Assembly: GCF_900105625.1 (NCBI RefSeq)
Contig: NZ_FNSD01000001.1
Coordinates: forward strand, 2,728,001-2,792,000
Reading direction: 5' to 3'
DNA: 64,000 nucleotides
Source of the DNA: Terriglobus roseus
Lineage (GTDB): Bacteria; Acidobacteriota; Terriglobia; Terriglobales; Acidobacteriaceae
The position numbers and the translations under genes were made by a program. The stretch's first letter is position 1, and each line of letters begins with the position of its first letter. The notes beneath the pieces are model-generated. The model saw only the letters and a list, made by a program, of their open reading frames with translations, was not told where the DNA came from and searched no databases. Positions 1,704 to 17,952 of this stretch are shown one piece after another.

Positions 1704-2612
1704 ATGGGAAACCTCGTAGTCGTTGGCAGCCTGAATATGGATATGGTCAGCACCGTGGACCGGATGCCCGCGCCCGGCGAGACGGTCACTGGCAGCGGCT
1801 TCTCCACCGTGCCCGGCGGCAAGGGTGCGAACCAGGCGGTCGCGGCCGCCCGGCTCGGCGCGAGTGTCTCGATGCTGGGGTGCGTCGGCTCCGACAGCTT
1901 TGGTGCCACGCTGCAGCAGGGCCTGCATGCCGAGGGCATCGATAACTCCGCGGTACAGGAGTGTCCGGGCTCGAGCGGAGTTGCAGCGATCACCGTAGCC
2001 GCGGATGGAAGCAACAGCATTGTCGTCTACCCCGGCGCGAATGCACTGCTCTCAAACGAGATTGTTGAAAGGGCAGCGTCCGCCATCCGTTCCGCAGCCA
2101 TGGTCCTGGTGCAACTGGAGACGCCGATAGCCACCGTGGAGCGCCTCGCAGAGATCTGCGCTGATGCGGGGACGCCTCTGATGCTCGATCCTGCACCGGC
2201 GCAGACATTGTCGGCAGGACTGCTGCGAAGTACTACGTGGCTTACGCCGAACGAATCGGAGACGCGGACACTGCTTGGGATCGCTGAAGACCTGCCGGTG
2301 GACGAGGCTGCTCAGAGACTGCTTGCGCTGGGGCCGTGGAACGTTGCGCTGAAGGTTGGTGCGCGTGGGGTCTATCTTGCGGGCGCGGCTGTCGCGGGCA
2401 CGCTGGTCTCCGCGCCGGTGGTCCAGGCCGTCGACACTACGGCTGCGGGTGACTGCTTCAATGCGGCCTTTGCCGTAGCGCTCAGCGAAGGGAAGGCGCC
2501 TGTTGAAGCAGCTCGCTTCGCATGCATGGCGGCATCTTTGTCTGCGACGAAGGCCGGAGCCCAGCCATCCATGCCGCTCCGGGAAGAGGTACTGCGGATC
2601 ATGCGCGCTTAG
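1704..2612 (+). CDS. rbsK: Ribokinase / PfkB-family sugar kinase
   Basis: A 302-residue PfkB kinase, predicted to phosphorylate D-ribose at O5 with ATP in the cytoplasm. Visible signatures are the N-terminal GSLNMDMV, the GGKGANQAVAAARLG glycine motif near residue 40, the NE motif (WLTPNESE) and the C-terminal PfkB box DTTAAGDCFNAAF, whose Asp is the catalytic base. The ATG at 1704 is chosen because the protein aligns with ribokinases from MGNLVVVGS; an open frame continues upstream but gives an unrelated leader. It converges with the following MFS gene and the two stop regions overlap by 4 bases. No other rbs genes are nearby, so the substrate could be another furanose. Confidence 0.85.
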   Translation: MGNLVVVGSLNMDMVSTVDRMPAPGETVTGSGFSTVPGGKGANQAVAAARLGASVSMLGCVGSDSFGATLQQGLHAEGIDNSAVQECPGSSGVAAITVAADGSNSIVVYPGANALLSNEIVERAASAIRSAAMVLVQLETPIATVERLAEICADAGTPLMLDPAPAQTLSAGLLRSTTWLTPNESETRTLLGIAEDLPVDEAAQRLLALGPWNVALKVGARGVYLAGAAVAGTLVSAPVVQAVDTTAAGDCFNAAFAVALSEGKAPVEAARFACMAASLSATKAGAQPSMPLREEVLRIMRA

Positions 2613-3901
2613 TCTGCGACACGCATGCCGTCGGGCGCGGCCAGTGTGGCGTAGCTCAGCGCACCCAGCAGCGTTACGCTGGCGCAGACGACGAAGCCCA
2701 GCGTGAACGAGTGGGTGCGGTCGAAGAACCAGCCAGTAAGTACTGGCGCGGCGGATGCGATGACGAAGCTGGCGAAGTTCTGCAGGGCACTCATGGAGGC
2801 GACGAGGCGCGCGGGGCTGACCGTCTGCACATAGCCCCAGCCGCTGGTCCCGGCGAAGTGGATGAAGAAGAGCGCGAAGCTGATGCCTGCGATGGCCTCG
2901 GCGGTACTGCCTGCGCGTGAGACAAAGAACGTAGCCCCAGCGGAGACGATCATGCCGGTCACGAGCTGGATGCGATGCAGCGTGGTCAGCCGAACACCGC
3001 GCTTGGCCCACAGGTCTGCGGAGAAACCACTGCAGAGCATGCCCGCCGCCCCCGCGAGGAAGGGAATCGCGGCGAGCCAGCCGCTCTTCGCGAGGGACAG
3101 GTGCCGTTCCTGCTGCAGGTAGCCCGGGAGCCACGCGGTGTAAAGCCAGTTGGTGTAGTTGATGCCGCCAAAGCCCAGCATCATACCCCAGGCGGTGCGC
3201 TGCCGGATGAGCTCGGCAAAAGCACCGCGTTTCGCATGCGAGTGCGTTGTTCCCGGCTCATCCAAACGCGCTGAAGGCGCGTGACTTCCCAGCCCAGGGC
3301 GAAGCCCTGGGTTCGCATCCCCAACAAGGCCCGCGGGCTGAAGGCTCGCGACAAGATCTTCGCGGTAGGGCGTCGCCGCACGTGGCCGATGCAGCCACAC
3401 CCACAGCGCGGAGACGACGAGCCCCGCTGCGCCGAGGATCATGAACATCACGCGCCAGCCGGTGCGGATCATCAGCAGGGTGAGCAGTGGCGGCGCGATC
3501 GCCAGCCCGAAGGTCTGCGAGCTGCTCATGATCGCGGTGGCGCGGCCTCGCGTGCGGTCGGTGAACCACTCGCGCACGCTGCGCACGCCTGCAGGGTAGA
3601 ACGGCGCCTCACCCATGCCCAGCAGGATGCGGAAGACGATGAACATGGGAAAGCTGGTGACGAGGCCGGTGAGCAGTTGCGCGCCGCTCCAGATGGCGAG
3701 ACCCGCGCCGAGAACGCTGCGCGTTCCCAGGCGGTCGAGCAGGCCGATCAGTGGTAGTTGCGAGAGGCCGTAGGCGAATGAAAACGCGCTGAGCAGCCAG
3801 CCCATCTCCGTGCCGGAGAGATGCAGCTCCGATCGCACCGTGGTGTTCGCGATGGAGAGCGAGGACCGGTCGAAGAAGTTGACCACGCCCGCGGCAAACA
3901 A
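2609..3901 (-). CDS. MFS transporter, ACS (anion:cation symporter) type, probable sugar acid transport
   Basis: An MFS permease of about 430 residues, last gene of the hexuronate/lar operon. The motif GMGEAPFYPAGVRSVREWF and the NFFDRSSLSIAN start match the ACS family, which includes ExuT, GudP and DgoT, so a uronate or aldonate is the likely substrate. The TTG at 3901 falls inside the first membrane helix. The same frame stays open upstream (LRAHQAITLGLL), so the true N-terminus may be near a CTG at 3967 that has a GGCGAGG stretch before it. Between helices 6 and 7 (3264-3353) the frame runs through a palindromic repeat that adds roughly 30 residues to the cytoplasmic loop. Confidence 0.82.
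   Translation of the reverse strand: MFAAGVVNFFDRSSLSIANTTVRSELHLSGTEMGWLLSAFSFAYGLSQLPLIGLLDRLGTRSVLGAGLAIWSGAQLLTGLVTSFPMFIVFRILLGMGEAPFYPAGVRSVREWFTDRTRGRATAIMSSSQTFGLAIAPPLLTLLMIRTGWRVMFMILGAAGLVVSALWVWLHRPRAATPYREDLVASLQPAGLVGDANPGLRPGLGSHAPSARLDEPGTTHSHAKRGAFAELIRQRTAWGMMLGFGGINYTNWLYTAWLPGYLQQERHLSLAKSGWLAAIPFLAGAAGMLCSGFSADLWAKRGVRLTTLHRIQLVTGMIVSAGATFFVSRAGSTAEAIAGISFALFFIHFAGTSGWGYVQTVSPARLVASMSALQNFASFVIASAAPVLTGWFFDRTHSFTLGFVVCASVTLLGALSYATLAAPDGMRVAD
3264..3353. repeat. Palindromic repeat element inside the MFS gene
   Basis: Three adjacent inverted repeats: CGCGCTGAAGGCGCG, then CCCAGGGCGAAGCCCTGGG, then GCCCGCGGGCTGAAGGC. The style (x-GCTGAAGGC-x hairpins followed by TTCGCATCCC) matches the intergenic elements elsewhere in the window. 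On the minus strand the element has no stop and is read as SLQPAGLVGDANPGLRPGLG and flanking residues in the central loop of the transporter. Confidence 0.7.
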
Positions 3902-4004: not shown

Positions 4005-4757
4005 CTATCGCACTGCGCGGTTTGCGTACAGCGTGCTCACGTAGCCCGCGCCAAAGCCATTGTCGATGTTGACTACCGTCACGTTGGGCGAGCAGCTGTT
4101 CAGCATGCCCAGCATCGCCGTCACACCGCCGAACGACGCTCCGTAGCCAACGCTCGTTGGCACTGCGATGACGGGCACTGCGACCAGGCCGCCGACGACC
4201 GAGGGCAACGCACCCTCCATGCCGGCGCAGACGATGACGGCATCTGCCGTGCGAATTGCAGGCAGATGCGCGAGCAGGCGATGCAGACCGGCGACGCCGA
4301 CATCGGTGAAGCGCGAAACCTCTGCGCCGAAAAAGTCTGCGGTCAATGCTGCTTCTTCTGCGACCGGTAGATCGCTGGTGCCGGCACAGATCACGGCGAC
4401 TCGGCCACCGGACTTCTTCGCGCCCGCGCCGCAGGTGATGCAGCGAGCGACCGGGTGATAGGTCGCCTCAGGCACCAACTCGCGTGTTGCTTCGAATGCC
4501 GCATCGTCTGCGCGAGTGGCCAGCGCGGGCGTGCCGTTCGCATGAATGCGCGCGAGGATCATTGCCGTCTGTTCGGCAGTCTTACCAGAGGCGAAGACCA
4601 CCTCCGGCATGCCGCTGCGCAGGCTGCGGTGGTGGTCAACCTTGGCGAAGTCCAGGTCTTCGAAGGGGAGCGAGGCCAGCTTGTCGGCGACCTCGTCGGC
4701 AGAGCGCGTGCCCGCGCTTAGTTCGCCGAGAAGTTTGAGTAAAGCGTCACGCTGCAT
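4005..4757 (-). CDS. larB: Nickel pincer cofactor biosynthesis protein LarB
   Basis: A 250-residue LarB homologue. In the Lactobacillus pathway LarB carboxylates and hydrolyses nicotinic acid adenine dinucleotide to the pyridinium-3,5-biscarboxylate mononucleotide precursor of the nickel-pincer nucleotide. The C-terminal half is an AIR-carboxylase (PurE-like) domain: AVICAGTSDLPVAEEAA, FTDVGVAGLHRL, VIVCAGMEGALPSVVGGL, TSVGYGASFGG and NIDNGFGAG. The ATG at 4757 follows AGAAAGAGAACT; longer upstream frames only translate the repeat between larB and larE. It is downstream of larE and larA in one operon. No larC (nickel insertion) is seen in the window. Confidence 0.93.
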   Translation of the reverse strand: MQRDALLKLLGELSAGTRSADEVADKLASLPFEDLDFAKVDHHRSLRSGMPEVVFASGKTAEQTAMILARIHANGTPALATRADDAAFEATRELVPEATYHPVARCITCGAGAKKSGGRVAVICAGTSDLPVAEEAALTADFFGAEVSRFTDVGVAGLHRLLAHLPAIRTADAVIVCAGMEGALPSVVGGLVAVPVIAVPTSVGYGASFGGVTAMLGMLNSCSPNVTVVNIDNGFGAGYVSTLYANRAVR

Positions 4758-4776
4758 AGTTCTCTTTCTATCCAAC

Positions 4777-4902
4777 AACAAAGCGGGTGCCCCATACATG
4801 CGCAGCTTCATCGCGCATGTGTGGGATCTCAAATTCGTGCCCGCGGAGAATCTGTATCCCGCACATCGCGTGGTGCGCGAGGTACGGGGCACCCGCTTCG
4901 TT
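4777..4902. repeat. Palindromic repeat element between larE and larB
   Basis: The ends are inverted copies: AACAAAGCGGGTGCCCC at 4777-4793 and GGGGCACCCGCTTCGTT at 4886-4902. Between them are smaller arms with GCGCATGTGTGGGAT and ATCCCGCACATCGCG. The element fills the whole larE-larB gap and its right arm overlaps the larE stop. The GGGGCACCC core recurs at about 26.2, 28.1, 46.1, 46.3 and 47.75 kb. Confidence 0.8.
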
Positions 4903-5764
4903 ATGCTGCATGAGTCTTCGTCCCTGCAACCAGGCTCGATACGGGCAGCAGGGCGTTCATGCTGCCGCTGCGATAGCCCTCGGTATCCAGCGTCACGTAG
5001 GTGAAGCCTGCGGCCTTCACGCGCTGGGTGATCTTTGCCATCATGTCCAGCGATAGTGCGGAGGCAAGCTCGCTGCGCTCAATCTCAACGCGTGCCAGGT
5101 CACCGTGGTGACGCACACGCAGTTGCCGAAAGCCGAGCGCGAGCAACGACTCTTCCGCTTCCTCGACCTGTCGCAGAGCCTCTGCGGTGACAGGCCGTCC
5201 GTATTCGAGACGCGACGATAAGCAGGCGGACGCAGGTCGATCCCAGACGGTCAGATTCGCAGCCTGCGCCAGCGCGCGAATCTCCTGCTTGCCCAAACCT
5301 GCATCGTTCAGCGGAGCGACTGCGTTGTGCTGCTCCGCGGCCTTCTGGCCGGGGCGAAAGTCTCCGCTGTCGTCGCGGTTTCGGCCGTAGGCCATGGCGG
5401 TAATGCCGGTCTCGCGCAGCACGCCTTCCATGGTCAGGAAGAGTTCATCCTTGCAATGAAAGCAGCGCGCGCCGTCGTTCTTTACGTACTCCGCGCGGTC
5501 CATCTCAGCGGTCTGCACCACGCGTAGTGGAATGCCATGGTCCTGCGCGAACTGCATGGCGAACTCAAGATGTGTGCGCGGCAGACTCGGCGAATCGGCA
5601 ATAACCGCGAGCATGCGATCGCCCAGCACCTGGCAGGCCTCCCATGCGAGATATGCCGAGTCCACGCCGCCGCTGTACGCGACAGCGAGCCGGTCGTAGC
5701 GCCGCAGCTCCTGCTGGAGTGCCGTGCGGTGGAGTTCGAGTTGGCTGTTGTCGTGGGATGCCAT
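4901..5764 (-). CDS. larE: ATP-dependent sacrificial sulfur transferase LarE
   Basis: A 287-residue LarE homologue. LarE adenylates the carboxylates of the LarB product and donates sulfur from its own cysteine (sacrificial type) or through an Fe-S cluster. Seen here: the PP-loop SGGVDS at 31-36, RCFHCK at 100-105, and WDRPASACLSSR, in which Cys181 sits where the sacrificial Cys of Lactobacillus LarE lies. The ATG at 5764 (MASHD) is preferred because the alternative GTG at 5788 would start inside a repeat element; neither start has a strong ribosome site. It lies between larA and larB, separated from each by a repeat. Confidence 0.93.
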   Translation of the reverse strand: MASHDNSQLELHRTALQQELRRYDRLAVAYSGGVDSAYLAWEACQVLGDRMLAVIADSPSLPRTHLEFAMQFAQDHGIPLRVVQTAEMDRAEYVKNDGARCFHCKDELFLTMEGVLRETGITAMAYGRNRDDSGDFRPGQKAAEQHNAVAPLNDAGLGKQEIRALAQAANLTVWDRPASACLSSRLEYGRPVTAEALRQVEEAEESLLALGFRQLRVRHHGDLARVEIERSELASALSLDMMAKITQRVKAAGFTYVTLDTEGYRSGSMNALLPVSSLVAGTKTHAA

Positions 5765-5779
5765 AAATGTCCGCGTGCG

Positions 5780-5913
5780 GAAGGGCACAGCTTCAGCTGT
5801 GCCGCAAACCCGTCGTTATGTATCTAATTTGTTTCTCTGCCCGCAAAGCGGGCAGAGAAACAAATAAAAGTTAGAGGAATCGTTCTTTGGCACAGCTAAA
5901 GCTGTGCCCTTCC
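5780..5913. repeat. Compound palindromic repeat between larA and larE
   Basis: The outer arms are GAAGGGCACAGC...GCTGTGCC (5780-5803) and its relative ending in GCTGTGCCCTTCC (5889-5913). Nested inside is a perfect 17-base-pair hairpin with arms TTTGTTTCTCTGCCCGC (5828-5844) and GCGGGCAGAGAAACAAA (5848-5864) around an AAA loop. It could fold strongly in the operon mRNA and affect larA-larE coupling. Confidence 0.8.
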
Positions 5914-5965
5914 AATCAACGAGCAGTTCCGTATAGGACGCTGCTCGCGTCGATCAAACGACAAG

Positions 5966-7300
5966 CTAGACCACATCCCCTGCGGCAACCTGCTCACGCG
6001 ACAGGTCCTTGCGTGATGGGTTGTCGAGCTTTTCCTTCGTGGACCACAGGCCGGCGGAGGGCGTGCTGATGTAAAAGACCTCTTCGCCGTCAGGCATGGT
6101 GTTCCAGCCTTCCTTCATTACGGCGGGATCGTAGCGCTTCGTCATCTCATGGATGTCCGCGTACTGGTACCCCACCTGCTCGATCTCTTCCTTCGTCAGG
6201 TGCCCGGGAGCGTAGGTGATGGTGAAGCGGCCTTCGCTGCTGCCGTGGATCAGGTGCGCCACGCCGTGCGGAATCTCCTGCATGTCGGCTTCTGTTTTGT
6301 AGAGAGCCAGCGTGCGCGGTGTTCCCTTGTAGCCGTACTTGCGGATCAGTGCATCCACTTCCGGCTGCTCGCCGAAGCGCTCGACGCCCGGCGCAAGGAT
6401 CAGCAGTTCGCCTCCATCGGCGATCGCCATACGTGTGCGGTAGACGGCCTTGTTGGCTACCCATGTTGCGCGGAACTCGTCGGCCTGCATGACGGCGACA
6501 ACCTTCTTCAGCGGCTTGTCGAAGAGTGTGATGTTCTGGTCGCGGCTTCGCTTGGCAGCCTGCAGATACGTGTCCAGATCGTCGCCGACGAAGATGCCGC
6601 TGGTGACCAGCTTGTTCTCCGCATCGCGCTGCATGACGATCTGCAGGTACACATCGGGCAGGTGCTTCAGGTGCTCGTCTTCGCTCCAGTTGTAGCAGGC
6701 GCGCAGCGGTGTCACCAGGCAGCCGAGATTGTTCTCAATGCCATAGACGGCGGCCGCAATGTGCGACGCGCAGATGGTGTCCTTGCCGCCCAGACCGATG
6801 TAGTAGTTCTTGTTGTGGTTCGCGAAGCCAAGCACTTCATGCGGCACCACGTGACCCACGTTGATGATCAGGTCCCACTGCTCATCCATGAGCTTGCTGT
6901 TCAGGTCGACGGGGATGTCCCAGTCCGCGGCGCCGTCCGTCGTCTCTTTCACGAGCGAGGCGGGGATGGTTGCGACGTGCGTGCAGCCGTTGCGCCAGTC
7001 GTGCGGGAAGATGCGCTCTTCGGGAATCGAGCCGAACATCCACTTGTTCTCGGCTTCGGTGTGCGGCACGTGCTGACCCAGCGTCGGAATCACCTCCACG
7101 TGCGCATCCGGCAGAGCGTTGTAGAGATATTCGGTGATCCATCCGCTGCCGCTGTGCGCGCGCGTCAGGTCAGGCGGCAGCAGCAGAACACGCTTCAGGT
7201 CCTTGTTGATACGCGTACGCGCTTCGCTCAATAGCTTGTCGCAGGCTTCCTTGATCTGCGCATCCGATACGTGCGGTGCTTCTACCTTGAACCAGGCCAC
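5966..7300 (-). CDS. larA: LarA-family nickel-dependent 2-hydroxyacid racemase/epimerase
   Basis: A 444-residue LarA homologue (DUF2088 superfamily) that should bind the nickel-pincer nucleotide and invert the C2 carbon of a 2-hydroxyacid by hydride transfer. The start is a GTG at 7300 behind GAGGGAAA. LarA landmarks are visible: PPDLTRAHSG (Asp44, Arg47), LGQH (His77), VPHEVLGF (His154), NHNK (Lys164, the position of the Lys that tethers the cofactor) and CASH (His180). The usual GGxK before the lysine reads NHNK here, a subgroup difference. The context (uxaE, exuT, SDR) argues for an aldonate or uronate-derived substrate rather than lactate; gluconate/mannonate 2-epimerisation is one option, by inference. 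Confidence 0.85.
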   Translation of the reverse strand: MAWFKVEAPHVSDAQIKEACDKLLSEARTRINKDLKRVLLLPPDLTRAHSGSGWITEYLYNALPDAHVEVIPTLGQHVPHTEAENKWMFGSIPEERIFPHDWRNGCTHVATIPASLVKETTDGAADWDIPVDLNSKLMDEQWDLIINVGHVVPHEVLGFANHNKNYYIGLGGKDTICASHIAAAVYGIENNLGCLVTPLRACYNWSEDEHLKHLPDVYLQIVMQRDAENKLVTSGIFVGDDLDTYLQAAKRSRDQNITLFDKPLKKVVAVMQADEFRATWVANKAVYRTRMAIADGGELLILAPGVERFGEQPEVDALIRKYGYKGTPRTLALYKTEADMQEIPHGVAHLIHGSSEGRFTITYAPGHLTKEEIEQVGYQYADIHEMTKRYDPAVMKEGWNTMPDGEEVFYISTPSAGLWSTKEKLDNPSRKDLSREQVAAGDVV

Positions 7301-7518
7301 TTGAATTTCCCTCAGCGGCCATGGGCCGCGCGTTCTGCGATTGATCTTGCGCCACGCTTCAGGCCGTGACGCCCCTCTGTAACTCACTTCTTGCATCGAG
7401 CTTCGTCGCTGCGAAATTCCCTGCCTGCCTTGATTCGCAAGGGCACGGCTCAAGCCGTGCCCTTACGATTCTTCGCAGCCAAGCACTTCGTGCTCGACTC
7501 CGGTGCTTCTACGTCTTG
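7301..7518. repeat. uxaE-larA spacer with palindromic repeat
   Basis: A 218-base spacer inside the operon. It contains the palindrome AAGGGCACGGCT (7439-7450) / CAAGCCGTGCCCTT (7451-7464), the same family as the copies at about 5.8, 46.0 and 47.7 kb. No gene or promoter is recognised apart from the larA ribosome site. Confidence 0.65.
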
Positions 7519-8766
7519 TTAGCCGATGAAGATCGGCTTGATGTGCCGGTCGAAAAGGTTCGTTGTCACGTTGCGCGCGACCACTGCCTCGTTCGCTTCC
7601 AGCGCATCGGTATAACGTGCGCCCATCTTTGCTGCAACCTTGAAGCCGACGTGCAGCAACTGGCGCAGGTCCGGATTGTACTGCTCGTCATTCTCGTCAT
7701 GGCGCAGCGCGCGCACGTACTGCTCGCTCGTCCAGCCGTTGACGGTCTCAGGCGATGGCAGGTTTGCCGTCTTGATGTCGATGACGGTTGCGTACGGTGC
7801 GCAGAGTTCTTCGGAGTGCGCGAAGGCTTCGGCATAGACTTCCTTCGCCAGAGCGAGGGCATCACCGCCTGCTTCTGCCAGACCGATGAGCTCTTCCAGC
7901 CAGGTGGTGCCGGCAGTCTTTACGTGAACGCCAGCGCCCGTGTCCTTCAGTGCTTCGCGGATCGACTGGTAGATCGAGAACTTATCGGAACCCGAGTGAA
8001 CGCTGAGCTTCAGGTTCGCGGGCAGGCCGTACTTGTCGATGGCGTAGGCGATCGTGGCCAGGTCCTCGCGGAACTCCTTGTCGAATTGCGGCACATCGCC
8101 CACGTAATCCACGCCCTTATTGAAGCGGCCGGTGAACTTGGGTGCAATGGTCTGGATCGGCAGCTTCTCATCGGCGATGGCGGCGAGGATGATGAGAAGC
8201 TCGGGCGGCGTCTGCGGTGCATCCGTCTCGTCCATACTGATCTCTGCGACGAAGTCCTCGTTGCCCTTCTTGTCCACGACCGCCTTGTAAATCTCCGCAG
8301 CGTGCTGCACGGCTGCCAAGAACTGCTTCGCGGTCTTCTCAACGAAGGCCTTGTCCAGTGAGAAGGGCTTGTCGATTCCGGGGATTGTGATCTCGCCGAT
8401 CAACTCCGGATGACGCGCGACGAACTTGGCAATCTCCGCGTCATCGCTCTTCTGGCCGATGTTGTCCGCCACGTCGATGGTGAAGAAATCGCACGGCGCA
8501 ACGAAGCGCTCGTAGGTCTTCAGGTTGATGTGATCGGCATCGAGGAAGTAAGGCTTGGTCCAGCCCAGTTCCTTCACAGCTGCATCCGCCGCGGATCGCG
8601 TACCGCTGGGTTCACTGCCAATGATCAGGTGCTCGCGATTGCTCTTGTTCCATACCGGCGCGACATCGGCGCCAGCCTCTGCACCCAGGATGCAGGCTTG
8701 TAACTGCGCCTTGGCCTGATGTGCAAAACGGTCGCCCATACCGAGCGAAAACTTGGGTAGCTGCAT
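7519..8766 (-). CDS. uxaE: Tagaturonate epimerase UxaE
   Basis: A 415-residue member of the TM0440/UxaE family, which interconverts D-tagaturonate and D-fructuronate and so merges galacturonate and glucuronate catabolism. Family landmarks read from the sequence: GDRFAHQAKAQL near the N-terminus, DADHI (about 76-80), FFTIDVAD, EISMDETDAP, TGRFNKGVDYVGD, SVHSGSDKFSIY, HVKTAGTTWLEE and RQLLHVGF near the C-terminus. The ATG at 8766 (MQLPKFSLG) is used; an AAGGGAG sits 11 bases upstream. The protein is shorter at the N-terminus than the Thermotoga enzyme as I recall it. It lies between the SDR gene and larA in the operon. Confidence 0.87.
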   Translation of the reverse strand: MQLPKFSLGMGDRFAHQAKAQLQACILGAEAGADVAPVWNKSNREHLIIGSEPSGTRSAADAAVKELGWTKPYFLDADHINLKTYERFVAPCDFFTIDVADNIGQKSDDAEIAKFVARHPELIGEITIPGIDKPFSLDKAFVEKTAKQFLAAVQHAAEIYKAVVDKKGNEDFVAEISMDETDAPQTPPELLIILAAIADEKLPIQTIAPKFTGRFNKGVDYVGDVPQFDKEFREDLATIAYAIDKYGLPANLKLSVHSGSDKFSIYQSIREALKDTGAGVHVKTAGTTWLEELIGLAEAGGDALALAKEVYAEAFAHSEELCAPYATVIDIKTANLPSPETVNGWTSEQYVRALRHDENDEQYNPDLRQLLHVGFKVAAKMGARYTDALEANEAVVARNVTTNLFDRHIKPIFIG

Positions 8767-8796
8767 GTTCTTGGTGACTCCCTTACCTGTCCGCAT

Positions 8797-8810
8797 AAAA
8801 ACGTTTCGAT
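8797..8810. promoter_or_regulatory. Possible LacI-type operator upstream of uxaE
   Basis: AAAAACGTTTCGAT has the palindromic core AAACGTTT (8799-8806), about 33 bases before the uxaE start and inside the SDR-uxaE gap. It resembles LacI-family operators and the GAAACGTTTC site near the third receptor gene. No LacI-type gene is in the window, so the regulator is unknown. Confidence 0.3.
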
Positions 8811-8906
8811 AATAACCTTCCCAAGGAAGTTTTGTCTCCAGGGATCGCGCCTTTTCGGCAATTGCCAGCGATCCTGGGCCAACTCAGGGAGGTCAGGCGG
8901 AACCAG

Positions 8907-9680
8907 CTACTGGTTCACGCCACTCGCGAGGAATCCGCCATCGACAACGATCGTGTGCCCATTGGTAAACGATGCTGCGTCGCTCGCCAGGTAAATGGCC
9001 GCGCCCACAAGTTCTTCTGTTTTGCCAAACCGGTTCATCGGGGTGCGCATGCGCAGTTCCTGCCCGCGGGGCGAACCGTCCAGCAGCGCCGCATTCAACT
9101 CGGTACGGAAGACGCCGGGAGCAATGCCGTTCACGTTCACACCATGCTTCGACCACTCCACCGCAAGCGAACGGATCAGCGACAGCACGCCGGCCTTGCT
9201 GGCGGCATAGGCAGCAACTTCATTCAACGCCACGTAGCTGTTCAGCGACGCGATATTGATGATGCGGCCGTACTGCTGGTCGATCATGTGCTTGCCAAAG
9301 ACCTGGCAGCAGCGGAGCATGCCGGTCAGGTTGGTATCGATGATGTCCGTCCACTCTTCTTCGGAGACGGTGAGCGTGGGCGTGCGCTTGATCTTGCCGG
9401 CGCAGTTCACGAGGATGTCGACTTTACCGAACTGCTCAACGCAGGCCGTCAGCAGGGCTTCAATCTGGTCGCGGTGCGTCTGGTCGGTGGGCTGGCGCAG
9501 GGTCTTGCGGCCGATTGCCTCGATCTCTGCGGCGACTTCGTTGACCTGCTCGACGCGGCGGCCAGTGCTCACAACATCTGCGCCGGCCTTCGCCAGACCA
9601 AGGCTCATGGCGCGGCCGATGCCGCTGGTGCCGCCGATCACGACCGCTACGCGGCCTTCCAAACTCAGGGGATGCTTCAC
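8907..9680 (-). CDS. SDR oxidoreductase, candidate fructuronate/aldonate dehydrogenase
   Basis: A 257-residue classical short-chain dehydrogenase. NAD(P)-binding GGTSGIGRA is at about 19-27, followed by NCAG, the catalytic Ser in NIASLNSY, YAASK (Tyr and Lys of the active site) and a C-terminal IVVDGGF. The start is a GTG at 9680 with GGAGG eight bases upstream, just past the exuT stop. Similar SDRs include gluconate 5-dehydrogenase, KduD and the SDR-type D-mannonate oxidoreductase of Bacillus (UxuB/YjmF). No long-chain UxaB/UxuB reductase is present, so this protein is the best candidate for the keto-uronate reduction step; the exact substrate cannot be read from sequence. Confidence 0.8.
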   Translation of the reverse strand: MKHPLSLEGRVAVVIGGTSGIGRAMSLGLAKAGADVVSTGRRVEQVNEVAAEIEAIGRKTLRQPTDQTHRDQIEALLTACVEQFGKVDILVNCAGKIKRTPTLTVSEEEWTDIIDTNLTGMLRCCQVFGKHMIDQQYGRIINIASLNSYVALNEVAAYAASKAGVLSLIRSLAVEWSKHGVNVNGIAPGVFRTELNAALLDGSPRGQELRMRTPMNRFGKTEELVGAAIYLASDAASFTNGHTIVVDGGFLASGVNQ

Positions 9681-9684
9681 TTGC

Positions 9685-10983
9685 TTATGCCTCCAGATTG
9701 ACGCGCTGCAGACCACCCGCGAACAGGCGCAGGATGACCCAGGCGATCATGTAAACGCTGCCGGCCAGGACGAACAGCGACGTGTAGCTGCCGGTCAACT
9801 GCAGGATGTGTCCTGCTTCCAGCGACAGAAGAACGCCGCCAACCGATCCTGCCATGGCGGTGATGCCGGTGACGCTGCCCACCGCGCGCGGCGGAAAGAT
9901 GTCAGAGACGGTGGTGTACATATTTGCCGACCAACCCTGGTGGCCCGAGACCGCAAGGCTCAAAACCAGGATGGAGCCGGTGATCGTCGTCATGTGGCTG
10001 GCGAAGAGCATGGGCAGCGAAAACAGGGCGCAGATAAACATCGACAACAGGCGCGCATTGCCCTCGCGCATGCCGCTCTTCACGAAGATCTTCGGGATCC
10101 ATCCACCGGCGATGCCGCCCACGGCCGATGCGCCATAGATGATCATCAGCGGCGCACCCATGTGCGACAGGCCCAGGTGATATTGCGCATCCAGGAAGCC
10201 CGGCATCCAGAAGAGATAGAACCACCAGATGGAATCGGTCAGGAAGCGTGCGGCAGAGCACGCCCACGTCTGCTTGAACGCCAGCAGCTGCAACCAGCGG
10301 GGTTGTGCTCCGCCTTCGGTCGGCGCTTCTTCGTCGGACTGAATGTAGTGCAGCTCGGCGCGCGAAACTGTTTTGTGTGCAGCCGGTGTGCGGTAACTCG
10401 TGTACCACCAGATGATCCACGGCGCGCCCAGCAGGCCGGTCACCAGGAAAGCAGCATGCCAGCCGTAACGCAGCGTGATCCACGGCACGAAGAAGGGTGC
10501 CACCATGGCGCCGGTCGTGGTGCCCGCGTTGAAGAGACCCGTTGCGAACGAACGATCTTTTTTCGGGAACCAGTCAGCGACAGTCTTGATGGCAGCGGGG
10601 AAGTTGCCGGCCTCACCCAGGCCCAGCGCGAAGCGTGCGGTGGCAAAACCGAACGCCGTGGTCACAAGTGCGTGCGCCATGCCGGCCAGGCTCCAGATGC
10701 CCATGATCAGCGCATAGCCGAGGCGCGTACCCAGCTTGTCTACAAGTCTGCCGGCGGCGAGCAGTCCCAACGCATAGGCGACCTGGAAGCAGGCAATGAT
10801 GTAGCCGTAGTTCTGCTCGGTCAGGCCGATGTCATGCATCAGCGTGGGCTTGAGGATGCCGATGACCTGGCGGTCCATGTAGTTGATGGTGGTGGCGACG
10901 AACAGCATCATGCACACCATCCACCGAACGTTGCTGGTGCGCGTCTCTAGATACGTATCGCGTGTCGATTCGAGGGTGCTCAC
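9685..10983 (-). CDS. exuT: Hexuronate transporter ExuT (MFS)
   Basis: A 432-residue MFS permease of the ACS family. INYMDRQVIGILKPTL in the first helix and GLGEAGNFPAAIKTVADWFPKKDRSFATGLFNAGT match ExuT proteins, which import D-galacturonate and D-glucuronate with protons. About twelve hydrophobic segments are visible. The GTG at 10983 (MSTLESTRDTY) is favoured because GGAG sits just upstream; an ATG-led version 12 codons longer is possible. It is the first gene of the leftward operon and faces the FadR-type regulator across a 207-base gap that must hold the operon promoter and probably its operator. Confidence 0.85.
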   Translation of the reverse strand: MSTLESTRDTYLETRTSNVRWMVCMMLFVATTINYMDRQVIGILKPTLMHDIGLTEQNYGYIIACFQVAYALGLLAAGRLVDKLGTRLGYALIMGIWSLAGMAHALVTTAFGFATARFALGLGEAGNFPAAIKTVADWFPKKDRSFATGLFNAGTTTGAMVAPFFVPWITLRYGWHAAFLVTGLLGAPWIIWWYTSYRTPAAHKTVSRAELHYIQSDEEAPTEGGAQPRWLQLLAFKQTWACSAARFLTDSIWWFYLFWMPGFLDAQYHLGLSHMGAPLMIIYGASAVGGIAGGWIPKIFVKSGMREGNARLLSMFICALFSLPMLFASHMTTITGSILVLSLAVSGHQGWSANMYTTVSDIFPPRAVGSVTGITAMAGSVGGVLLSLEAGHILQLTGSYTSLFVLAGSVYMIAWVILRLFAGGLQRVNLEA

Positions 10984-11190
10984 AGCGCTCCGGGAAACTG
11001 CATGTTTGGCGTGCCGCACAGGCTTACATCGGAAGCCGTCGGCAGCATATATCAGGCCTGCCAGAAAGTCCCGTGAGCGTGAAGAGGTCCGACCACTGCC
11101 TTATAGATGTATTCCTCCGCTCATTCCACTGTCAACGCTGCGGCATGTCTTCCTTCCCTTTTTCGGCGGGTCTGTGCAGAATTGGCTGAT
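10984..11190. promoter_or_regulatory. Divergent control region between exuT and the FadR-type gene
   Basis: The 207 bases separating two divergent gene starts. By position it should contain both promoters and the binding site of the FadR-type regulator. I could not pick out a convincing GntR/FadR palindrome by eye, so only the arrangement is claimed. Confidence 0.45.
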
Positions 11191-11985
11191 ATGCCCAGCC
11201 TCCAGATTGCAAGTACCGGGGAAGACCGCCAAATGACCATGCGCGTCGTCGAGCGGATTCGAACCCTGCTGGAAGACGGCACGTTACAGCCGGGCGACAA
11301 GCTGCCGCCGGAACGTGAATTCGCCAGGACGCTCGGTATCAGCCGCAGCAGCCTGCGCGCGGGGATCGGCTACCTGGCGGCCATGGGCCTCTTGCAGGTG
11401 CGGCATGGCGTTGGAGCGTTCCTGTCGGAGTCGCCGACCCAGTTCGGCGCAGCATCCCTGCCGTTTCTGGATGCGCTTCACGGGTACGAGATGGGGCAGC
11501 TCTTCGAAGCGCGCCGCGTGCTGGAGGGCCACCTGGCCGCGCTGGCCGCGGACCGCATCAGCGAGCGGCACCTGGCGCAGATGGCAGAAGAGCTTGAGGA
11601 GATGGACGCGACTGTCGATACGCCGCAGGACTATCTGATCCACGACGTCCGCTTTCATCGCATCATCGCGCAGGCCGCAGGAAACAGCATCCTCGCGGCC
11701 ATCATGGAGAGCCTCACCGGCGCGCTGTATGCCGCTCGCCGCGCGAACGCCGAACAGACGGTTGATCTGGCACTCACCACCGCGCTGCACCGCGGGGTCT
11801 ATCGCGCCATCCGGTCCGGCAACGCCCGCGCCGCGCGTGCTGCCATGGAGCGGCATTTGATGGAAGCGGAGGATGCCCAGAAAAAGGAAGCCACGGCGCC
11901 GGTGCGGATCAAGCCGGCAGTTGCTGCAAAAAAGACGGCGAAGACGACGCGGGCTCTGGCAAAGTCCAAAGAGCCTGCGAAGTAA
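11191..11985 (+). CDS. GntR/FadR-family transcriptional regulator of the hexuronate operon
   Basis: 264 residues. The N-terminal winged helix is typical of GntR (LQPGDKLPPEREFARTLGISRSSLRAGIGYLAAMGLLQVRHGVGAFL, about residues 31-77) and is followed by an all-helical FCD ligand domain (about 95-225) with the conserved DVRFHRIIAQAAGN. ExuR and UxuR, the E. coli hexuronate repressors, belong to this subfamily. The ATG at 11191 gives the usual N-terminus but lacks a clear ribosome site. The last 30 or so residues are an unusual Lys/Ala-rich tail (VAAKKTAKTTRALAKSKEPAK) like histone H1 tails, which could add nonspecific DNA binding. The gene is divergent from exuT. Confidence 0.87.
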   Translation: MPSLQIASTGEDRQMTMRVVERIRTLLEDGTLQPGDKLPPEREFARTLGISRSSLRAGIGYLAAMGLLQVRHGVGAFLSESPTQFGAASLPFLDALHGYEMGQLFEARRVLEGHLAALAADRISERHLAQMAEELEEMDATVDTPQDYLIHDVRFHRIIAQAAGNSILAAIMESLTGALYAARRANAEQTVDLALTTALHRGVYRAIRSGNARAARAAMERHLMEAEDAQKKEATAPVRIKPAVAAKKTAKTTRALAKSKEPAK

Positions 11986-12133: not shown

Positions 12134-13528
12134 TTACAACTTGTAAGCCGCTCGCACCAGGTTCACCGTCAGATCCTGCGCCAGGGTGAAGGCCTCGTCC
12201 TCATCCAGACGATGCTCCGCTACCAGCCGAGCCAGGAACGCGCAGTCCGTACGGCGAGCCACATCGTGCCGTGCCGGAATCGACAGGAAGGCGCGTGTGT
12301 CGTCGTTGAAGCCCACCGTGTTGTAGAAGCCGGCGGTTTCGGTCGCTGTCTCGCGGAAGCGCATCATGCCTTCGAAGCTGTCATGGAACCACCACGGCGG
12401 TCCCAGTCGCAGCGCGGGATAGTGACCCGCCAGAGGCGCCAGCTCGCGGCTGAACACGGTCTCGTCCAACGTGAACAGGATGATCGTCAGGTCACGCTCA
12501 TTGCCCACGATGTCGAGCATGGGCTGCAGCGCGTGCACATAGTCCGTTGCCGTCGGGATGTCCGCGCCCATGTCGCGGCCGAACTTCTCGAAGATCTCGA
12601 AGTTATGGTTGCGCATGCTGCCCGGGTGGATCTGCATGACGAGGCCGTCTTCGACCGACATCTTCGCCATCTCCGTCAGCATCTGCGCGCGGAAGATCTC
12701 GGCGTCATCTTCGTCGGCATCGCCGTTCAAAATGGTGGCGAAGAGTGCCTCGCACTCCTCGTCATCCAGGTCGGCAGTGCGAGCGGTAGGATGGCCGTGA
12801 TCGGTGGCCGTCGCGCCGAGGGACTTGAAGCGTTCTCGCTGCTTGCGCAGGGCGTTGAGATATCCCTTCCAGGAAGAGGTATCTTCATTGCTGATCTGGC
12901 CAAGCTTGTCGATGTTCTCGAGGAACCCTGCAAATTCAGGGTCGACCACGGAGTCCGGACGGAAGGTGGGAATGATGCGGCCCTTCCAGTCGCCTGCGCG
13001 CAGGGTCTGAATGTCCGTCAGAGGATCGGTGGCGGCATCGGTCGTCGCCAGCACTTCCATCTTGAAGCTTTCGAACAGCGCGCGTGGCCGGAACTCCGGC
13101 GTTGCCAGCTTCTCGCTGATGGTGTCGAAGTACAGGTCGGCGGTCTTTTCGCTCAGGCGCTCGGTCATGCCGAACTGCTCCTGGAAGGCGTAATCCAGCC
13201 ACAGGCGCGACGGCGTGCCACGAAACAGGTAGTAGTGCTTGGCGAAGATATGCCAGACGGCGCGCGGATTCTCAATCACCGGCTTGCCGATCTCCAGCTC
13301 TTCCAGGCGCACGCCCTGGCTGTACAGCATGCGATGGACATAGTGGTCGGGCTGGATGAAGAGCTTCGCAGGATCGGGGAACGCCTCATTCGAGGTGAAC
13401 CAGCCGGCATTCGTGTGACCATGCGGGCTGATGATCGGTAGGTTGCGCACCGTCGCATACAGCCGGCGTGCGATGTCGCGGGTAGTGGGGTCTGCCGGAA
13501 ACAGCCGGTCATCGTGCAGCAGGGCCAT
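12134..13528 (-). CDS. uxaC: Uronate isomerase UxaC
   Basis: A 464-residue amidohydrolase-fold isomerase that converts D-glucuronate to D-fructuronate and D-galacturonate to D-tagaturonate, the entry step of the pathway. The start is the ATG at 13528 (MALLHDDRLFP) with GAAGGACG before it. Family landmarks: ISPHGHTNAGWF with the first metal-binding HxH, LYSQGV, a long internal region with WKGRIIPTFRPDSVVDPEF, MQIHPGSMRNHN, and SRELAPLAGHYPALRLGPPWWFHDS. It stands apart from the exuT operon on the far side of the regulator gene, and the fragment at 13540 lies only 11 bases upstream. Confidence 0.92.
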   Translation of the reverse strand: MALLHDDRLFPADPTTRDIARRLYATVRNLPIISPHGHTNAGWFTSNEAFPDPAKLFIQPDHYVHRMLYSQGVRLEELEIGKPVIENPRAVWHIFAKHYYLFRGTPSRLWLDYAFQEQFGMTERLSEKTADLYFDTISEKLATPEFRPRALFESFKMEVLATTDAATDPLTDIQTLRAGDWKGRIIPTFRPDSVVDPEFAGFLENIDKLGQISNEDTSSWKGYLNALRKQRERFKSLGATATDHGHPTARTADLDDEECEALFATILNGDADEDDAEIFRAQMLTEMAKMSVEDGLVMQIHPGSMRNHNFEIFEKFGRDMGADIPTATDYVHALQPMLDIVGNERDLTIILFTLDETVFSRELAPLAGHYPALRLGPPWWFHDSFEGMMRFRETATETAGFYNTVGFNDDTRAFLSIPARHDVARRTDCAFLARLVAEHRLDEDEAFTLAQDLTVNLVRAAYKL

Positions 13529-13539
13529 TGGGTCGTCCT

Positions 13540-13803
13540 TCAAAACTGAGCATTCACTGCCACCGCAGGTCCGGTGGTCATACCACCATAAACCTCTGTG
13601 CCCCAGGTCCGCACAAACGCACTCCTGCGCACCGTTCGGGTGCCTCGGCCGTCCAGCCCCGCTCTCCCCTGTGTGTCGGCAAGCGCAAAGAAGCGATGCG
13701 TCGACACGTTGTATTCGCTCAGAGAGGTCGCGTGGACTTCGATCACCGTCTGGAGCACCCGCTGCCGCCAATAGTTAGGTAAACAACCTAAATTGGGAAA
13801 CCC
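13540..13803 (-). pseudogene. Remnant of an outer-membrane protein gene (3' end)
   Basis: An 87-codon open stretch with no good start, ending 11 bases before the uxaC start. From NYWRQRVLQTVIEVHA onward it reads like a real protein and ends AVAVNAQF; a C-terminal aromatic residue after alternating hydrophobic residues is typical of beta-barrel outer-membrane proteins. The first few codons look like noncoding sequence. It may be the tail of a deleted porin or receptor gene of the uronate locus. I do not recognise the family. Confidence 0.35.
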
Positions 13804-14286: not shown

Positions 14287-17200
14287 ATGAGATCTTCGTT
14301 CTCAGGGCTTCGGCTAGTACCAACGGCCGTCGCCGCTGTAGTGATGCTTGCAAGCGCCCCGGGCGCGCTTGCGCAAACGAATTACGGCTCCGTTCGTGGT
14401 CAGATCAAGGACGGAACGGGAGCCCATATCAAGGACGCGCAGGTAACGCTGACCAACCTTGATACGAAGGTCGAGCGTTCCTCGCATACCACCGACGCAG
14501 GCGACTACGTCTTCAGTGCGGTCGATCCCGGCAACTATCGCATTACCGTTGTGGACAAGGGCTTCAAGACCTACGAGGATAGCGGCCTTCGCGTGGAACT
14601 CGGTGCGACCACTACCATCGATGCTTCGCTGCAGATCGGCGCATCCGGAGAGACCGTCGAAGTGACTGCGGAGTCGCCACTGCTGGATACCGCAAGTGCC
14701 TCCGGTGGACAACTGTTCAGCGAACAGCAGATTCAGGACCTGCCGAATCTGGGGCGAAATCCATTCATCTTTGAAAAGTTCGACAGCGGCGTGGTCACCA
14801 CAGGCGATCCGCGTTATGTTCGCGCGGAAGATCAGACGGGCCTCTCACAAGTTTCACTGGCCGGCGCTCCCATTGGGTCCAATAACTACGTCGTCGACGG
14901 CATTCCCATTTCGACATCGTCGGGTGGTGTCACCTTCATTCCCTCACCTGAGGCTGTGTCTGACGCCAAAGTGCAGGTGAATACCTACGATGCTGAGGCG
15001 GGCCGGACCGGTGGCGGTATCTTCAACACCTCGCTCAAGTCAGGTTCGACGCAATATCACGGTTCGCTTTACGGCGAGACGCGCCAGACACCCTGGTCTG
15101 CCAACCTATGGTTCAATCCGGCCAACGCGACCACCGGTCTTAAGGGCGCCACACTGGACAACACGACCTACCTGTACGCCGGCGCTTTCGGTGGTCCGTT
15201 GCCCTTTATGAAGAAGATCAAATGGCTGGATAACACCTTCTTCTGGGTGACAGAAGAAGGTTACCGACAGGCACAGCCGCTGACCGGTGCAACCACGGCA
15301 TTCTTTCTGCCCACGGCGGCAGAACGCAACGGCGACTTCTCTGGCGACGGCATCACGCTGTATGACCCGACCCGGGGTAATCCCACGGGTTCCAACCGTG
15401 TGTGCCAGATTACTAGCGCCGGCGATTGCACCTCCGGCACAAAGAATGTGATCCCGACGTCGTATATCAATCCCATTGGGAAATACATTCTGAATCAGTT
15501 TCCGGCACCGCAGAGCAATATCGGATATGCCGCGGCGTTGGCCGGCCCGCAGAATAACTTCACCAACAACGTAACGTTCAAGACTCGTTCCGACATGTAC
15601 AGCGGAAAGCTGAGCCACACCTTCGCTCCGTGGTGGACGGCATCCAGCTCCTATGTGCACCTGGCGACGCAGGAGCCCACGGGCGATACGATCGGTGTTC
15701 TCGTCTCGAGCCGTAATCAGAAGCTCCTGCGTTACAACGACGCGACGGCCCTGAACAACACCTTCACCATCAGCCCCACGCTGTTGCTGACGGTTGGATA
15801 TGGCTTCAACCGCTATTACAGCGGCACGTTGCAGGGGTCTACCGGCTTCGACGCCACCAGCGGATTCGGCGGCTCGGGTTTCCCGTCTTCCCTGGTAAAC
15901 CAGTTCCAATCGAAAACCTTTCCGTCCATCGGCATTTCGAACATCGGCATGGGGTCGATCGGCCTCGGCGCATCCAACAGCGGTCCCACAATCAACTTCT
16001 CACGCAACCTGGTTGTGGGCTTCACCAAGACGCTGAACAAGCACAATGTGAAGTTTGGTTATGTCTTCCGTGCGATGAGCGCATACAACCCCTCGACGGC
16101 CAATGGCGGCGGCACCTTCAACTTCACGGGCGCCTACTCCAACAAGACAGGTGGTACCGTGTCGGGACCGTATGCCTATGCGGACATCCTGATGGGCCTG
16201 CCTGCGACGGCAACAGCGCAGGTTACCGCCATCGCCAACAGCTTCGTCGAGAACTATCATGCGGTCTACCTGCAGGACGATGTCCGTCTGACCTCGAAGT
16301 TCACACTGAACGTCGGTGTGCGCTATGAGTACGAACTGGGCGAGAAGGAGCGCAATAACAACTTCAATGTCGGATTCGACCAGAACATCAGCTATGCGAT
16401 CCCGGGCTCTGCCATTGGCACGGCAAAGGGTGGTCTTCGCTATGCCGGTCAAAACGGCGCTCCCACTCACTGCTGCAATCTGAGCCACGTGAAGTTTTCA
16501 CCGCGCATCGGTATCGCATATCAGGTGCTGCCGAAGACAGTCTTTCACGCGGGGTTTGGTGTCTTCTACGCGCCTGTCGGCATCGTGAACCCAACGATCG
16601 GTTATGCGCAGACGACCAGCTACACGCCGGTCGACTTCGTCTCAGGCGCCGCAGCCGGCACGAAGGTAGGCTCGGCGGCGTACCTGTCAACACCGTTCCC
16701 GACCGGTCTCATCACGCCATCGGGCAACAGCCTCGGACCGCTCACAAGCCTGGGGAGCTCGCTCGCCACGCTGCAGGACTTCGCTCGCCGCTTTCCATTC
16801 GTCCAGCAATACTCGGCGGACATTCAACAGGAATTGCCGGCCGGCTTCGTCTTCAAGTTGAGTTACGTTGGCGCTCACTCCCGCAACATCGCAAACTCCT
16901 ACAACATTGACCAGGCATCGGCTTCGCAGCTTTCCGCCGCCAAGGTTGCTGGAACGGACCTGACAACGACCGTGACCAATCCTTACTACGTGGCCTCGGT
17001 CGCTTCTGGCGGAACCAACTACGCCACATCCCTGACCCCAACCGTCCGGCGCGCCCAGCTTTTGCTGCCCTTCCCACAGTTCACCGGTGTCACCGTCAAC
17101 GGCTCCAACGGCTACTCGAACTACAATTCGATGGCCGTCAAGGTGCAGAAGCGGATGTCGCACGGCGTCACGCTTCTTAGCACCTACACCTGGGCTGCCA

Positions 17201-17952
17201 ACTGGGACAATCTGTGGAGCGCTTCCTCGCAGATCTATTCGGCTGGCGGACCTCAGGATGTTTTTAACCCGAAGGCGGAATACTCCCGCGCGCTCAGCTC
17301 TGTACCCAACCGCTTCACCGCAGCCATCTCGTACGAGTTGCCGTTCGGTCGCGGCAAACTAATTGGTAGCCACGTGAACCGTCTGGTGGACGAGGCCATC
17401 AACGGCTGGCAGATCAACGACGAGTGGATCATGCAGAACGGCGTGCCGCTGCCCATCTCGCAGACCAACATGAACAGCGATCGCGGCGTCACGGGCTTCG
17501 GTGGTGCGACACAGCGTCCGAACCTGGTGGGCGATGCGCATGATGCCTGCCGCAGCGGAAGTCCTCAGGGTCGCCTGGGCAACACGGCCTATGGCGTGCT
17601 GCCCAAGTACCTGAACGCGAATGCCTTCTCAGCCGCGCAACCCTTCACCTTCGGTACGGCGCCACGCTTGTTGCCCTGCCGCGGACCGGGTATCAACACC
17701 TCGGACGTATCGATCAACAAGTCATTCTCCATTGGGGAACACGTAAAAGCTCAATTCCGTGCTGAGGCGTTGAACGCCTTCAACACACCACAATTCGACG
17801 CGCCGAATACCGTGCTGATCGTGAGTCAGAACGGCATCAATGCAGCACCGACCGTTACAGGCGGTAATACGGGTGCCACCCAATTGGGAAACATCACGAA
17901 CACGGTAGGTTTCGCACGCATCATCCAGTTGGGCGGAAAGATCACCTTCTAA
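14287..17952 (+). CDS. TonB-dependent receptor, Oar-like, with carboxypeptidase-regulatory-like domain (1)
   Basis: A 1221-residue outer-membrane receptor. AGGAGG precedes the ATG. Signal peptide to about residue 34 (ALAQT); a transthyretin-like carboxypeptidase-regulatory domain at about 37-115 (YGSVRGQIKDGTGAHIKDAQVTL through TIDASLQIG); plug domain at about 120-250 (VEVTAESPLLDTASAS, QIQDLPNLGRNPF, NNYVVDGIPIS); then a long beta-barrel ending GGKITF with the terminal Phe. Acidobacteria carry many of these and use them for uptake of oligosaccharides or other large substrates, without SusD lipoproteins. It is less similar to the next two receptors than they are to each other. The substrate is unknown; closeness to uxaC suggests, but does not show, an oligogalacturonide link. 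Confidence 0.88.
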   Translation: MRSSFSGLRLVPTAVAAVVMLASAPGALAQTNYGSVRGQIKDGTGAHIKDAQVTLTNLDTKVERSSHTTDAGDYVFSAVDPGNYRITVVDKGFKTYEDSGLRVELGATTTIDASLQIGASGETVEVTAESPLLDTASASGGQLFSEQQIQDLPNLGRNPFIFEKFDSGVVTTGDPRYVRAEDQTGLSQVSLAGAPIGSNNYVVDGIPISTSSGGVTFIPSPEAVSDAKVQVNTYDAEAGRTGGGIFNTSLKSGSTQYHGSLYGETRQTPWSANLWFNPANATTGLKGATLDNTTYLYAGAFGGPLPFMKKIKWLDNTFFWVTEEGYRQAQPLTGATTAFFLPTAAERNGDFSGDGITLYDPTRGNPTGSNRVCQITSAGDCTSGTKNVIPTSYINPIGKYILNQFPAPQSNIGYAAALAGPQNNFTNNVTFKTRSDMYSGKLSHTFAPWWTASSSYVHLATQEPTGDTIGVLVSSRNQKLLRYNDATALNNTFTISPTLLLTVGYGFNRYYSGTLQGSTGFDATSGFGGSGFPSSLVNQFQSKTFPSIGISNIGMGSIGLGASNSGPTINFSRNLVVGFTKTLNKHNVKFGYVFRAMSAYNPSTANGGGTFNFTGAYSNKTGGTVSGPYAYADILMGLPATATAQVTAIANSFVENYHAVYLQDDVRLTSKFTLNVGVRYEYELGEKERNNNFNVGFDQNISYAIPGSAIGTAKGGLRYAGQNGAPTHCCNLSHVKFSPRIGIAYQVLPKTVFHAGFGVFYAPVGIVNPTIGYAQTTSYTPVDFVSGAAAGTKVGSAAYLSTPFPTGLITPSGNSLGPLTSLGSSLATLQDFARRFPFVQQYSADIQQELPAGFVFKLSYVGAHSRNIANSYNIDQASASQLSAAKVAGTDLTTTVTNPYYVASVASGGTNYATSLTPTVRRAQLLLPFPQFTGVTVNGSNGYSNYNSMAVKVQKRMSHGVTLLSTYTWAANWDNLWSASSQIYSAGGPQDVFNPKAEYSRALSSVPNRFTAAISYELPFGRGKLIGSHVNRLVDEAINGWQINDEWIMQNGVPLPISQTNMNSDRGVTGFGGATQRPNLVGDAHDACRSGSPQGRLGNTAYGVLPKYLNANAFSAAQPFTFGTAPRLLPCRGPGINTSDVSINKSFSIGEHVKAQFRAEALNAFNTPQFDAPNTVLIVSQNGINAAPTVTGGNTGATQLGNITNTVGFARIIQLGGKITF

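Follow-up and report, generated by a model that had tools for sequence, protein, structure and literature searches.

What does a LarA-type epimerase do among the genes of a hexuronate operon, and how does it obtain its cofactor when no LarC is found in the genome? The question is raised by a 64,000-nucleotide stretch of Terriglobus roseus DNA (contig NZ_FNSD01000001.1, positions 2,728,001 to 2,792,000; the window), where open reading frame (ORF) and family profile searches place larB, larE, larA, uxaE, a short-chain dehydrogenase/reductase (SDR) gene and an exuT-like gene in a single minus-strand run at 4005–10983. These searches confirm an earlier reading of the DNA, made from the sequence only, according to which the lar genes are embedded in an exuT/SDR/uxaE operon with a divergent regulator. 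The explanation as a whole, which is considered fairly probable, is that this is a hexuronate operon of Terriglobus, that its LarA leads to gluconate, and that LarA of the clade to which it belongs does not depend on LarC. The conversion of mannonate to gluconate is an idea that has been in print before, while the novelty here lies in the missing LarC.

LarC and the LarA clade

The window's genome (G000) is 4.8 Mb in size, in two contigs, with a completeness of 99.9%. The sequence-only reading described the cofactor as made by LarB, LarE and LarC, which does not fit this genome, so that the nickel dependence proposed for the enzyme does not follow. Of this maturation system, LarB and LarE are shared and their genes are adjacent. 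LarC is not encoded in the run 4005–10983, a point overlooked earlier, and searches of the whole genome did not reveal it either: PF01969 gave no match and TIGR00299 gave none at E ≤ 10.

PF01969 detects LarC in 29 of 34 Acidobacteriota genomes, and it is missing in G000, G163 (of the same genus), G013, G065 and G107. In a set of 37 genomes, all searched for LarC, LarB is over its cut-off in 35, and only G000, G163 and G013 among these 35 are without LarC; at E ≤ 10, TIGR00299 matches nothing in G013, and its single match in G163 is at chance level (E 0.18). The remaining two, G065 and G107, have no LarB over the cut-off and a LarA of a different type, and at the same threshold TIGR00299 finds nothing in G065, while what it matches in G107 does not exceed chance level (E 0.18 or worse). 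In these two Acidobacteriaceae genomes, which belong to one genus, the distant LarA homologue (L118, L101) is located beside an SDR gene and an ExuT-like gene. The opposite case, LarBEC without LarA, is described in PMC11796402, and G022, G194 and G171 resemble it in having LarB and LarC but no LarA match in the NF052594 search.

Among the 50 genomes with the nearest relatives of the window's LarA, LarC is matched in 30, in two of them (G200 and G202) by its C-terminal part only, and LarB is over the cut-off in 45. A tree of 56 LarA sequences places the window's protein in a clade of 20 (support 100/98), of which 16 come without LarC, two with a partial LarC (L159, L161) and two with LarC (L166, L171). 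The 16 LarC-less genomes span Acidobacteriota, Actinomycetota, Armatimonadota, Kiritimatiellota and Planctomycetota. They include the window's genome, G163 and G013, together with T. roseus DSM 18391 and 12 further genomes in which PF01969 likewise found no LarC; not marked as metagenome-assembled genomes (MAGs) among these are T. roseus DSM 18391 (titled complete sequence), Oceanitalea stevensii, Flaviflexus massiliensis and Ruaniaceae KH17. Except in the Armatimonadetes and Pontiellaceae MAGs, LarB passes its cut-off throughout the 16 (14 genomes), and in 11 genomes LarE adjoins or is fused to LarB, with LarC not between them. The gene order larE-larC-larB is seen in all 15 LarC-bearing Acidobacteriaceae stretches that hold the three genes.

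Literature searches and the excerpts examined of PMC7583248, PMC11796402, PMC9283937 and PMC12611868 yielded no mention of LarA, LarB and LarE without LarC, which is weak evidence of novelty; the lack of LarC is likewise unmentioned for LarAH group 18, the LarA group to which the window's protein is assigned below.

Substrate of LarA and the hexuronate pathway

The window's LarA scores above the curated cut-off of NF052594, “nickel-dependent putative hexonate epimerase” (LarAH group 18; Table 1), as do all those tested of its kin, namely seven named relatives and the LarA of G013. In a profile search of solved structures the nearest by sequence is 4nar (104.9 bits), which is GntE2 of T. maritima according to PMC7583248. 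Gluconate 2-epimerases have E, V, A and H at LarA positions F175, F176, W358 and T359 (PMC11770544), and the window's protein has E184, V185, A377 and H378 (numbering of window:5966-7387), invariant in 23 aligned rows, although A377 and H378 were placed via the 4nar alignment and thus less directly than E184 and V185, placed via 5huq. The two catalytic histidines and the Lys, His and Arg of the cofactor site typical of the superfamily are kept as well, R76, H106, H183, K193 and H209 being invariant in the same rows.

For the window organism we infer the reactions from gene content, families, signature residues and co-occurrence. ExuT would import glucuronate or galacturonate, UxaC would isomerise these to fructuronate or tagaturonate, and UxaE would interconvert the two products. 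The SDR would reduce fructuronate to D-mannonate, LarA would invert C2 of mannonate to yield D-gluconate, and a gluconokinase encoded elsewhere would make 6-phosphogluconate. LarB and LarE would begin the cofactor of LarA, which would need no LarC, being metallated otherwise or combining the pincer nucleotide with a metal other than nickel. The presence of UxaC and UxaE in or by the operon places it in the hexuronate isomerase pathway. The SDR, which also matches PRK08277, “D-mannonate oxidoreductase” (215.8 bits, under the cut-off of 281), is probably the fructuronate reductase that yields mannonate.

UxuA (PF03786) was not found in the window's genome, and LarA was at first taken from this to be the sole outlet for mannonate. 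That is ruled out by a gene for a ManD-type mannonate dehydratase (699.2, cut-off 550), one of five enolase-superfamily genes over the cut-off in this genome, along with those for glucarate dehydratase, o-succinylbenzoate synthase and two proteins unassigned at the threshold used. The branch of uronate breakdown through LarA suggested by the sequence-only reading is therefore not obligate: gluconate formation is likely, and mannonate has a dehydratase outlet as well.

The gene neighbourhoods fit a route from uronate through fructuronate, mannonate and gluconate to 6-phosphogluconate. Among 197 Acidobacteriota genomes searched, group-18 LarA is over the cut-off in 26, UxaE is present in 25, a UxuA-family match in 19 and GntK over the cut-off in 20. 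A LarA match at E ≤ 1e-45 (in some UxaE genomes not of group 18) occurs in all 25 genomes with UxaE and in 14 of the 172 without it, a comparison weakened by the relatedness of the sets, in which sequences are not independent, so that Fisher values overstate certainty and are only indicative. Group-18 LarA is found in 18 of 22 sampled Acidobacteriaceae, and of these 18 genomes 15 have UxaE, 15 GntK and eight any UxuA-family match, full-length-like in three. Within the LarA stretches of these 18 (17 to 20 kb each, plus the window), GntK is present in 12; counted by hand, 17 contain the SDR, 15 UxaC and 12 UxaE.

In the window's LarA clade, the stretches examined contain a gluconokinase-like kinase gene in six and Gnd in four of the 20 genomes, and by hand count at least one of UxaC, UxaE, a UxuB-type gene, the kinase or Gnd in 12, including the window, G163 and T. 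roseus. In the other phyla, LarA of the clade, or LarE-LarB located elsewhere in the same genome, sits with UxaC, a mannitol-dehydrogenase-type gene, FGGY kinases and 6-phosphogluconate dehydrogenase. The mannitol-dehydrogenase-type neighbour may be a fructuronate reductase; the one tested has D-arabinitol 4-dehydrogenase as its best NCBIfam match, below the cut-off. The FGGY kinases tested (from two clade members and one neighbour) match the gluconokinase model best, also below its cut-off, while the one 6-phosphogluconate dehydrogenase tested with NCBIfam is over the cut-off. The BP_11 LarA stretch has a transporter and an SDR only. The occurrence of genes for gluconokinase, 6-phosphogluconate dehydrogenase and a mannitol-dehydrogenase-type enzyme in related clusters makes the conversion of mannonate to gluconate the likely reaction, and family, signature residues and neighbourhoods together suggest that LarA probably catalyzes it.

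As a proposal, the mannonate/gluconate pair named by the sequence-only reading is thus well supported, but it is not new. According to PMC6978723, it was put forward by Rodionova et al. 2012 for gntE of T. maritima that mannonate is epimerised to gluconate and that gluconokinase acts next; homologues of gntE were reported there from Lactobacillus, Acidobacterium and Terriglobus. Activity on mannonate and gluconate was shown for the Thermotoga (T. maritima) and Corynebacterium (C. glutamicum) enzymes, and a hexonate was hypothesised as the group 18 substrate (PMC7583248). GntE2 of T. maritima (LarAH20, 4nar) is similarly encoded in a hexuronate cluster, in an organism that has UxaE in a control search, but it is distant from the window's LarA in sequence, as the score above indicates, and LarC was found in the T. 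maritima genome by the control search, unlike in the window's Terriglobus. The route of Lactobacillus suebicus also joins uronate isomerisation to 6-phosphogluconate, but in it phosphorylation of mannonate precedes the epimerisation, which acts on 6-phosphomannonate, and that work assigned no gene to the epimerase (PMC6978723).

A number of observations weigh against the gluconate route. The gntK gene is located ~195 kb from the operon in the window's genome, the ManD-type dehydratase provides another outlet for mannonate, as does UxuA in G163, and outside the Acidobacteriaceae none of eight genomes with group-18 LarA has GntK over the cut-off. No pathway genes were found in the stretches examined, some of them short, of five of the 20 clade genomes (Bin6.3, clean356, Propionibacteriaceae Hs463, Chthoniobacterales SKW161 and Humisphaera). 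UxaE was not found in the G013 genome, and LarA of G013 and of SCN 69-37 neighbours a galactarate/altronate-dehydratase-family gene and a YjhG-like dehydratase gene. These neighbours would suit a LarA that acts on a different C2 pair, altronate/allonate or the aldarates glucarate/mannarate, with mannonate passing to 2-keto-3-deoxygluconate via ManD, and so would the ManD and glucarate dehydratase genes of the window's genome; in addition, the excerpts of the literature report no test of a group-18 member, and for group 19, next to it, an aldarate is suggested in PMC7583248. Such a substrate is nevertheless unlikely, because GntK lies beside LarA in 12 of the 18 Acidobacteriaceae and Gnd or kinase genes near LarA of the clade or its LarE-LarB, which indicates gluconate as product, and because the GntE signature is complete in the window's LarA. 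That LarA is a lactate racemase whose place in the operon is incidental is scarcely credible: its membership of the LarA superfamily would allow this, but the lactate racemase model NF033504 gives 29.7 bits against a cut-off of 460, and the four residues are E, V, A and H, not F, F, W and E/Q.

Origin of the LarC absence and search for a replacement

In quickly built trees, the LarE and LarB proteins from Terriglobus and Bin6.3 form the sister group of their homologues from Acidobacteriaceae that have LarC (SH-like approximate likelihood ratio test, SH-aLRT, 91 and 85), the Edaphobacter MAG has no resolved place within the Terriglobus part, the Actinomycetota form a group of their own, and the LarE tree is long-branched. 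The loss of LarC seems to follow the type of LarA, because the Terriglobus LarB and LarE cluster with proteins of Acidobacteriaceae that possess LarC, while the LarA proteins group together. On the simplest reading, this LarA type would have spread between phyla and LarC would have been lost where it displaced another type, which predicts that independence from LarC is a property of the LarA protein itself. It is tentatively proposed, as something quite possible if short of probable, that LarA of the clade works without LarC, either by taking the product of LarE directly, with metallation occurring on the enzyme itself, or by using the pincer nucleotide with no metal or one other than nickel; the arrival of such a LarA would then have rendered LarC dispensable on several separate LarB/LarE backgrounds.

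A replacement for LarC was sought among the ORFs near LarA and LarE-LarB in 14 lineages (13 of the clade and a Paenibacillaceae MAG), compared all-against-all, with LarA, LarB, LarE, UxaC, SDR, UxaE, kinase and Gnd queries set aside. Where Pfam gives an identity, the shared ORFs encode TRAP binding proteins, LacI regulators, an ABC ATPase and a GFO/IDH/MocA oxidoreductase, none of them an insertase, and the others, without assignment, are mostly common to three Actinomycetota only. Of the shared ORFs, the only one with kin in Terriglobus (L298 7488–9398, minus strand) partly overlaps LarB on the opposite strand and looks like its shadow. A distinctive type of LarE or LarB was also dismissed as the cause, as at the thresholds used the LarC-less LarE proteins are set apart by one Val only and the LarB proteins by no residue. 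Nor does LarC appear as an extra domain on LarE, since the 636-residue ORF of L170 and the 588-residue ORF of L169 do not look like LarC. The former (L170 11936–13846, Ruaniaceae KH17) has LarE in frame with what by eye is an N-terminal LacI-type regulator, a possible regulator-enzyme fusion, and in the latter (L169 13086–14852, Propionibacteriaceae MAG) LarE and LarB are fused. In LarA itself, where a new metal ligand was looked for, the carboxylate Asp161 is typical of the clade (17 of 18) and lies outside the four commonest residues in 32 neighbours.

LarC-independence of the clade is itself weakened on several sides. No candidate replacement emerged near the clusters among the 40 remaining ORFs with kin in at least three of the 14 lineages, and the alignment of clade and neighbour LarA sequences shows no clade-specific Cys or His. 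Two clade members do carry LarC, and incompleteness adds noise, as nine of the 16 LarC-less clade genomes are MAG records, and LarC is also missing in seven of 32 in the rest of the larger LarA clade, all MAG records. TIGR00299 was run on three of the 16, and neither it nor PF01969 would recognise an insertase that is unrelated or has diverged extremely. It is a serious, if somewhat doubtful, alternative that LarC function is present but unrecognised, supplied from elsewhere in the genome either by a LarC that has diverged strongly or by a nickel insertase unrelated to it, and that the cofactor is the ordinary nickel-pincer one. LarB, LarE and all cofactor-binding residues of LarA are kept, and nickel is installed by LarC in the systems described in PMC11796402. 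On the other hand, the same search finds LarC of other genomes at 347 bits or more, save split or partial ones, and no extra gene is shared near the clusters, although a replacement need not be linked to them. One split LarC is that of Paenibacillus thalictri (G237, L196; C10:164913–167200), which consists of two opposite-strand pieces ~1.1 kb apart, possibly a rearrangement. Decay of LarC, with the LarA system left as a non-functional remnant, would agree with the partial LarC of two MAGs, a 162-residue C-terminal ORF in G202, which overlaps the end of a hydrolase gene, and a 433-residue ORF in G200 with its N-terminal half unmatched. This is very improbable, as the key residues of LarA are invariant in aligned LarC-less members from three phyla, and the LarE and LarB frames are intact, several in clusters with pathway genes.

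Layout of the operon and implications

Table 1. Features of the operon region and palindrome copies (window positions).
Feature	Position	Strand	Evidence
Second MFS transporter (ACS-like), 3' of larB	2609–3901	-	PF07690; TIGR00893 254.9, below cut-off 395
larB, pyridinium carboxylase/hydrolase of cofactor synthesis	4005–4757 (ORF to 4892)	-	NF033503 282.5 bits, cut-off 175
larE, sulfur insertase	4901–5764	-	TIGR00268 305.4 bits, cut-off 150
larA, group-18 hexonate 2-epimerase	5966–7300 (ORF to 7453)	-	NF052594 586.9 bits, cut-off 500
uxaE, tagaturonate/fructuronate epimerase	7519–8796	-	PF16257 178 bits, cut-off 27.1
SDR dehydrogenase, KduD-like	8907–9716	-	239.7 bits, below cut-off 338.85
exuT-like MFS transporter, ACS-type	9685–10983 (ORF to 11019)	-	TIGR00893 232.6 bits, below cut-off 395
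GntR/FCD regulator, divergent	11107–11985	+	PF07729, PF00392
uxaC, uronate isomerase, past regulator	12134–13771	-	NF002794 563.1 bits, cut-off 387
Palindrome pair, larE-larA gap	5784–5803 and 5889–5908
Palindrome, larA-uxaE gap	7442–7461
Further palindrome copies	46035–46054 and 47676–47695

The best outside match of the window's LarA is that of T. roseus DSM 18391, with 98% identity and equal gene order. The likely starts of LarB, LarE, LarA and ExuT (Table 1) were judged by reading the start codons with T. roseus as comparison, and they agree with the extent first given for the run. The MFS gene 3' of larB is also kept in G163 and T. roseus. LarE has a CXXC motif and, further along, a third Cys, the arrangement of the [4Fe-4S] type described in PMC9283937, and the three cysteines are conserved in >90% of 35 LarE rows. 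The repeat-filled gaps noticed earlier are real: the 20-bp perfect palindrome GGCACRGCTNNAGCYGTGCC has five copies in the window, all exact in a search that allowed one mismatch, and none in 100 shuffles; three of the five are located in the gaps around larA.

Beside uxaC, three consecutive large outer-membrane β-barrel proteins (PF25183 and a carboxypeptidase-regulatory domain) are encoded at 14287–25984 (+). A pectate-lyase-like β-helix protein at 40651–42612 (+) is perhaps a source of uronates, and a tyrosine-type phage integrase with an arm-binding domain is encoded near the window end (62090–63295, +).

The pathway matters less here: a known idea is carried over to Acidobacteria and Actinobacteria of soils, strongly supported by gene neighbourhoods, and it points to the substrate of group 18. 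If LarA of the clade is active without LarC, the CTP-dependent cyclometallase would not be needed for nickel to enter the pincer nucleotide, or there would be an insertase yet to be found, or the metal would not be nickel. Any such outcome, if true, would change the accepted picture of this cofactor and might simplify the making of loaded LarA enzymes.

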